From Ectothiorhodospira sp. BSL-9 (lineage in GTDB: Bacteria > Pseudomonadota > Gammaproteobacteria > Ectothiorhodospirales > Ectothiorhodospiraceae): a stretch of DNA of 64,000 nucleotides. The notes beneath the pieces are model-generated. The model was not told the origin of the DNA. It was given only the letters and a program-made list of their open reading frames with translations, and did not search any database. The DNA lies in NCBI RefSeq assembly GCF_001632845.1, contig NZ_CP011994.1, positions 2,304,001-2,368,000 on the forward strand. The letters run 5' to 3'. Made by a program: the position numbers and the translations under genes. Position 1 is the first letter of the stretch; every line of letters begins with the position of its first letter. Positions 827-1,417 of this stretch are shown here, piece after piece.

Positions 827-1417
827 ATGATGCCTGAATCCTTCAACGTACCGCCGGATCAACGCCGAATTTATTATCGGGTGGCCCTCAAGATGCTGGC
901 ACTGCTGGGCGTGGCCATGCTGGCCTATGTGATGCTCAGCGCTGTGCTGGGAGACCCGGACGACGATGCCGGCCAGAGCGGCGGCCGATCCGTGGATATT
1001 TCCGACCTGGCCCCGGGCGAGGTCAAGGCCATCACCTGGGAGGGTCGTCCCATCTGGATTGTCGGGCGCACCCCCGACATGCTGGAAGCCGATGCGGCGT
1101 TTTCAGACCAGCTCTACGACGCGGATTCCCGTTTGAGTCGCCAGCCCCGGGATTATCGCAACCCCCACCGCTCCGCGGCTCCCGAGGTGCTGGTGGTCGT
1201 GGCCCTGGGCACCGATCTGGCCTGCGAACTCACCTGGGTGCCGCCCGAAGCCGCTGCGGAGGAAGGCTGGGGCGGCGGTTTTGTCGACCGTTGCCGCGGC
1301 TCACGCTACGACCTGTCCGGCCGCGTCTACCGCGACCAACAAGCCCGCCGCAACCTGGAAGTCCCCAACTACCGCCTGCCCTCCACCAACCAGCTGATCC
1401 TCGGCCAAACCCCTTAA
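827..1417 (+). CDS. Membrane-anchored Rieske-fold protein lacking all four cluster ligands
   Basis: One N-terminal membrane helix (about residues 20-42) is followed by a periplasmic domain that aligns with the bc1 Rieske protein, including GSRYDLSGRVY and NLEVPNYR near the C-terminus. In bc1 Rieske proteins box 1 is C-T-H-L-G-C and box 2 is C-P-C-H-G-S. Here they read G128-T-D130-L-A-C133 and D154-R-C156-R157-G-S. All four Fe-S ligands are replaced (Gly, Asp, Asp, Arg), while both disulfide cysteines (C133, C156) are kept. It is therefore unlikely to hold a 2Fe-2S cluster and may be a structural or assembly homologue. The start is ATG 827 or the adjacent ATG 830. The stop codon lies inside the palindrome that follows. 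Confidence 0.75.
   Translation: MMPESFNVPPDQRRIYYRVALKMLALLGVAMLAYVMLSAVLGDPDDDAGQSGGRSVDISDLAPGEVKAITWEGRPIWIVGRTPDMLEADAAFSDQLYDADSRLSRQPRDYRNPHRSAAPEVLVVVALGTDLACELTWVPPEAAAEEGWGGGFVDRCRGSRYDLSGRVYRDQQARRNLEVPNYRLPSTNQLILGQTP

Follow-up and report, generated by a model that had tools for sequence, protein, structure and literature searches.

Which job is left to a Rieske protein that has lost every ligand of its iron-sulfur cluster? The question is raised by a gene at positions 827 to 1417 (+ strand) of the window, the 64,000-nucleotide stretch of the Ectothiorhodospira sp. BSL-9 genome that was analyzed. The genome is a single contig of 3.55 Mb, in which the gene lies at C1:2304827 and encodes a protein of 196 amino acids from an ATG start. 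Its assignment as a ligandless Rieske-fold protein is based on the open reading frame, on a match to TIGR01416 (the NCBIfam model of the bc1 iron-sulfur subunit), and on orthologues across the order; the nearest named orthologue, from Ectothiorhodospira haloalkaliphila, is 93% identical. The window protein scored 102.8 bits against TIGR01416, above the cutoff of 97.4. Eight ligandless proteins were scored singly; the window protein and L016 (107 bits) passed, and the remaining six fell below the cutoff (82.4 to 93.6). Since two of the eight pass, automatic annotation may name ligandless proteins bc1 iron-sulfur subunits. Pfam scans gave no family for the window protein up to an E value of 10, PF10399 included, and none for any of 15 ligandless proteins at 0.01. 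A phmmer search of PDB sequences with the window protein returned Rieske chains, the best being 7yr9_A (E value of 3.6e-27), whose CTHLGC and CPCHGS-type boxes align opposite GTDLAC and DRCRGS.

An earlier note, made from the letters of this DNA, had claimed that all four ligands are substituted and that both disulfide cysteines and the flanking SRYDLSGRV and NLEVPNYR are retained. We compared the protein with the PetA of the same genome (L002, C1:417170-417724), which carries CTHLGC and CACHGS and whose gene shares an operon with those for cytochromes b and c1, and the claim held at every position. Box 1, GTDLAC (residues 128 to 133; 1208 to 1225, + strand), has Gly128 in place of the ligand cysteine and Asp130 in place of the ligand histidine and keeps the disulfide cysteine, Cys133. 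Box 2, DRCRGS (residues 154 to 159; 1286 to 1303, + strand), has Asp154 and Arg157 at the ligand cysteine and histidine and keeps Cys156. None of the four ligands is therefore left, and both flanks align with the canonical ones. A cluster relocated to other residues is unlikely, as Cys133 and Cys156 are the only cysteines of the window protein and it contains a single histidine.

The boxes were then read, in the alignment and as column counts, from every collected locus, translated and sorted by two profiles, with close relatives included in the counts. This gave 48 distinct ligandless sequences, 47 of which cover both boxes (some of them cut N-terminally by a contig end); the 48th is a piece from genome G021. 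A ligand residue occurred at none of the four positions in any of the 47, and both cysteines occurred in all of them. Position 128 is S in 23, G in 21, A in 2, and D in 1; position 130 is D in 43 and S, G, A, or T in one each; position 154 is D in 46 and E in 1; and position 157 is R in 43, G in 2, D in 1, and A in 1. Because the same pattern recurs in 47 of 47 distinct sequences, the resemblance is not due to chance. In the canonical set, 96 of 97 distinct sequences have all four ligands, the other (L073) being cut at a contig end and the only canonical segment among the profile-sorted translations to lack a ligand. Across 30 loci (L188 to L217), the ligand pattern matched in 29; L196 was not matched by the pattern. 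With four ligands in all 96 uncut canonical sequences, no intermediate between the two forms was found among the sequences read, and the split is a sharp, two-state one.

Trees told the same two sets apart. In a tree built without the columns of the four ligands, the 28 ligandless proteins parted from the 28 canonical ones with 100/100 support, and the ligandless set stayed one group, on long branches, when 14 further PetA rows were added in an attempt to root the family inside or outside gammaproteobacterial PetA. As judged from these sequences, the ligandless protein arose long ago as a paralogue of PetA, the bc1 Rieske protein. A search of its own genome with the window protein, up to an E value of 10, found two places only, the ligandless gene and PetA. 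The petABC operon, within C1:410000-424000, is intact and lies apart from the ligandless gene, and its PetA matches Pfam PF10399 (Tat signal) and PF00355. Two genomes, G008 (L067, L069) and G001 (L068, L071), each have two canonical PetA genes and the ligandless gene.

The earlier note had allowed that homologues might carry the ligands and that this copy might simply be decaying. What the homologues showed was a ligandless form conserved across relatives, with dN/dS (NG86) of 0.05 to 0.37 across 12 pairs; the family is under purifying selection. A decaying duplicate of petA, to which one shortened copy (in G021) and a member without an internal stretch (L062) might point, is scarcely credible against this dN/dS, the shared cysteines and missing ligands of 47 distinct sequences, a conserved locus, and open frames kept across families. 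For the window protein itself, decay is also countered by the normal Rieske protein that the intact petABC operon supplies alongside it. With dN/dS low and the ligandless form conserved, we ruled decay out.

The form is widespread among close relatives and patchy farther away. A complete orthologue was read in 22 of the 25 genomes of the family (G000 to G024); G010 and G013 have the canonical protein only, and G021 (L076, in a genome 82% complete) has the first 94 residues, with no second half found and rsmJ following. Since G021 retains those residues only, the gene is dispensable in places. Of the 47 genomes of the order, 40 gave a ligandless match by score, with E values of 1.9e-61 or better, well separated from canonical matches at 1.2e-43 or weaker. 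No ligandless match by score was found in the order genomes G010, G013, G305, G306, G312, and G316, four of which are 81% complete or less. A scan across named genomes gave 31 loci, 8 from Ectothiorhodospira, 22 from Thioalkalivibrio, and 1 from a gammaproteobacterial MAG (L062). The last holds a distant ligandless member at L062:650-1135, without an internal stretch of ~25 residues that others have; a tRNA-Phe gene lies upstream of it, at 21 to 96.

Class and phylum counts were made by score, with the first-look candidates of each genome scored in part, and are lower bounds: at least 15 of 377 genomes in the class sample match at 196.9 bits or more, the next match being at 170.2. The 13 lower matches that were read (170.2 bits or less) all carry ligands, and diverged members could be hidden among the weak second matches that certain genomes gave, including genomes of f151. 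The class-wide ligandless matches fall in seven families (f1, f20, f125, f126, f127, f145, and f151); nine members outside f1 were read, and six other gammaproteobacterial families are represented. By score in the sampled genomes, the distribution is patchy in f125 (1 of 4), f151 (1 of 4), and f127 (1 of 2) and complete in f145 (4 of 4). In the phylum sample, whose 299 genomes include members of the class, the gene from the window is the sole match above 172.1 bits among the matches listed, and the next, at 172.1 bits in G643, was read and carries ligands.

The gene keeps its neighbors in much of this range. Upstream lies yajQ (DUF520; 1 to 468, + strand; Pfam PF04461), present in 11 of the 31 loci and in 6 distant ones, and downstream lies a gene for an rsmJ-type SAM-dependent methyltransferase (1469 to 2155, - strand; Pfam PF04445 on 1469 to 2047), present in 29 of 31 and in 7 distant loci. 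A 2-hydroxyacid dehydrogenase gene and a Bax1-I gene each occur in 27 of 31, some of these loci sitting on short contigs. Part or all of the neighborhood is shared by seven of nine distant genomes (G149, G150, G285, G280, G168, G435, and G377); it is not shared in G043, in G426, or on the short contig L062. That several families share the locus suggests a single old gene passed down together with the genes around it.

Between yajQ and the ligandless gene, a divergent gene (471 to 791, - strand) encodes a 106-amino-acid protein with no Pfam or NCBIfam family, found in 28 of the 31 loci. It was rejected as an obligate partner, since the two genes do not always occur together: G004 has the ligandless gene but no match to the 106-amino-acid protein, and G013, G025, G033, and G039 have the latter but yielded no ligandless gene. 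The 106-amino-acid protein is highly conserved (60% identity or more in 26 sequences) and also occurs in genomes of other families where the ligandless gene was not found. Its model is helical and of middling confidence (mean pLDDT of 73.8), and a Foldseek search of the PDB with that model gave no match at an E value of 0.001 or less. A palindromic repeat with the half-site AAGGTGTCTGTCCCC lies at 1420 to 1466, right after the stop codon of the ligandless gene, and again at 2246 to 2260. The half-site has 79 exact copies in the genome (41 forward and 38 reverse), mostly in inverted pairs, and the reversed control has 0; the palindrome looks like a REP-type element.

The earlier note's reading of the fold was borne out by structure prediction and superposition, which might have given a structure unrelated to Rieske proteins. 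AlphaFold2, run on 29 aligned sequences, gave a confident Rieske fold (mean pLDDT of 89.2), a helix at residues 10 to 41 being followed by Rieske strands. Prediction and hydropathy both place a membrane helix at these N-terminal residues (854 to 949, + strand), and superposition on 7yr9_A, 2nvf, and 1rie places the Rieske domain at residues 54 to 192 (986 to 1402, + strand). In VIA-align comparisons, the head superposed on 7yr9_A with a Z score of 23.8 (1.6 Å over 144 residues, 35% identity) and on bovine 1rie with a Z score of 16.9 (2.3 Å over 125 residues). Column comparison showed W71, D98, QP106-107, R115, GG150-151, D162, GRV165-167, NL176-177, and P180 to be kept.

Other parts of PetA have gone. 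Among the parts that seat PetA in the bc1 complex and let it move and dock there are the hinge, the proline loop, the apolar tip, and the conserved Gly and Pro of its helix region. The hinge motif [AS]GA[PS] was found in 1 of 28 ligandless and 22 of 28 canonical proteins, and the proline-loop motif PA[PQVL].N was found in 0 of 28 and 27 of 28, respectively; by comparison with that motif, QQARRNL (residues 171 to 177; 1337 to 1357, + strand) is the former proline loop of the window protein. Column comparison showed that the helix region no longer has its conserved Gly and Pro, the linker is shorter (median of 22.5 versus 28), and the apolar tip has given way to a charged one, with a mean of 6.4 charged residues versus 0.86 in canonical proteins over 16 tip columns that were picked after the alignment had been inspected. 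The helix is more hydrophobic than in canonical proteins (2.38 versus 1.88), and the best 19-residue hydropathy is at least 2.07 in all 28 ligandless proteins. A twin-arginine motif (loose RR) is present in 9 of 28 ligandless and 26 of 28 canonical proteins. The usual cargo of the Tat system is protein that has already matured with its cofactor (PMC12219900), so that a weaker Tat signal would be in keeping with loss of the cluster. The window protein, one of the nine, still reads RRIYY at that place, which speaks against the signal having been lost completely.

These losses bear on whether the protein might still serve the bc1 complex, for which the earlier note had suggested a part in assembly or as a structural subunit. 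It would then be an accessory, assembly, or regulatory protein; its head, devoid of a cluster, would fill or proofread the place of the Rieske subunit while the complex is assembled, or would stabilize the complex. Homology to PetA, a similar size, and the plan of a single helix with a head would suit such a role, as would the intact petABC operon in the same genome. On sequence grounds, however, the changes in hinge, proline loop, and tip argue against simple docking at cytochrome b, and the loss of the helix-region Gly and Pro counts against a bc1 role as well. Neither petB nor petC was found in the window or at the 40 loci searched around ligandless genes, the genome's own pet operon serving as the positive control, and by score the ligandless protein occurs in at least 15 of the 311 class-sample genomes that have any Rieske-type match. 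We regard a bc1 accessory as a minor possibility.

Since related bacteria kept the clusterless form, the protein probably has a job other than carrying electrons. A non-redox role had been proposed in the earlier note, and the absence of ligands together with conservation of the ligandless form supports it at the level of sequence; the protein itself would hold no cluster and transfer no electrons. On balance, we favor a clusterless PetA paralogue with a helix-anchored periplasmic Rieske domain whose charged tip binds an envelope protein or ligand. A single N-terminal helix would anchor the protein in the inner membrane, with the disulfide-locked Rieske domain placed in the periplasm; conservation of R14, R18, and K22 at the helix start and retention of the cysteine pair suggest a periplasmic domain with an intact disulfide. 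The clusterless state would have become fixed and a charged tip gained, with Asp130, Asp154, Arg155, Arg157, Arg160, and Arg175 forming a putative charged surface at the old cluster-binding tip that may bind another envelope protein or a ligand. Outside the order the tip varies (position 130 is also S, G, A, or T and position 157 also G, A, or D), so the members need not share one ligand. The patchy distribution, the truncated copy in G021, and the RRIYY pair and TIGR01416 score of the window protein also count against this reading. A membrane-anchored periplasmic binding or scaffold domain is the most likely description.

Other uses of the same residues were weighed. An ancient gammaproteobacterial clusterless family in which the PetA tip became a charged docking site, acting either on the respiratory chain itself (as a regulator or decoy at the sites of docking to cytochrome b or c1) or as a disulfide-based periplasmic redox sensor, is unlikely. 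That the remaining cysteine pair is redox-active, as in a periplasmic thiol-disulfide sensor or oxidoreductase, we consider very unlikely: the two cysteines are invariant in 47 of 47 sequences and are the only ones in 26 of the 28 tree-set proteins, but the same pair forms the structural disulfide of canonical Rieske proteins, and its members lie 23 residues apart and form no CXXC motif. In the yeast Rieske protein, this disulfide is described as important for the overall fold (PMC12219900). That Asp130 and Asp154 make the former cluster site a binding place for a different metal or cofactor is highly improbable. Position 154 is acidic in 47 of 47 sequences and position 130 is Asp in 43, and zinc-bound Thermochromatium tepidum PetA (TtPetA) indicates that a site with ligands can hold another metal (PMC10492824); against this, position 157, beside it, is Arg in 43 of 47, and four proteins have S, G, A, or T at position 130. 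The preferred reading remains a charged periplasmic binding domain on a membrane helix.

An electron-transfer subunit is usually retained for the sake of its cofactor. In this case, selection kept a cofactor domain after the loss of every cofactor-binding residue, and in the ligandless family the other capacities of a Rieske head can be tested cleanly. Among open-licence papers, as represented by title and the start of the abstract, we recognized no account of a clusterless petA paralogue, and three known systems serve for comparison. The bc1 Rieske subunit PetA (TIGR01416; PF00355 with PF10399) shares the fold, the N-terminal helix, the size, the disulfide cysteines, and the core residues, whereas the ligandless proteins lack cluster ligands and proline loop, in 27 of 28 cases the AGAP-type hinge, and in most cases the twin-arginine motif, and have a charged tip and another locus. 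NirD/NasG, the small subunit of assimilatory nitrite reductase, is also Rieske-type, but it is cytoplasmic, has NirB as its partner, lacks a membrane helix, and is not known to derive from petA. No nirB was found among five scanned neighbors of the ligandless gene (yajQ, the 106-amino-acid protein gene, the PF04445 gene, the 2-hydroxyacid dehydrogenase gene, and Bax1-I). Cluster ligands can be missing in NirD/NasG as well; in a Bacillus NirD, one Cys and one His ligand are reported as substituted (PMC3475470). The closest solved head is that of zinc-bound TtPetA (7yr9), which crystallized with zinc chloride in the site and folds with its disulfide and without a 2Fe-2S cluster (PMC10492824). 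In contrast to the ligandless proteins, TtPetA keeps its ligands and binds zinc chloride, as a putative maturation state of PetA and not as the product of a separate gene.
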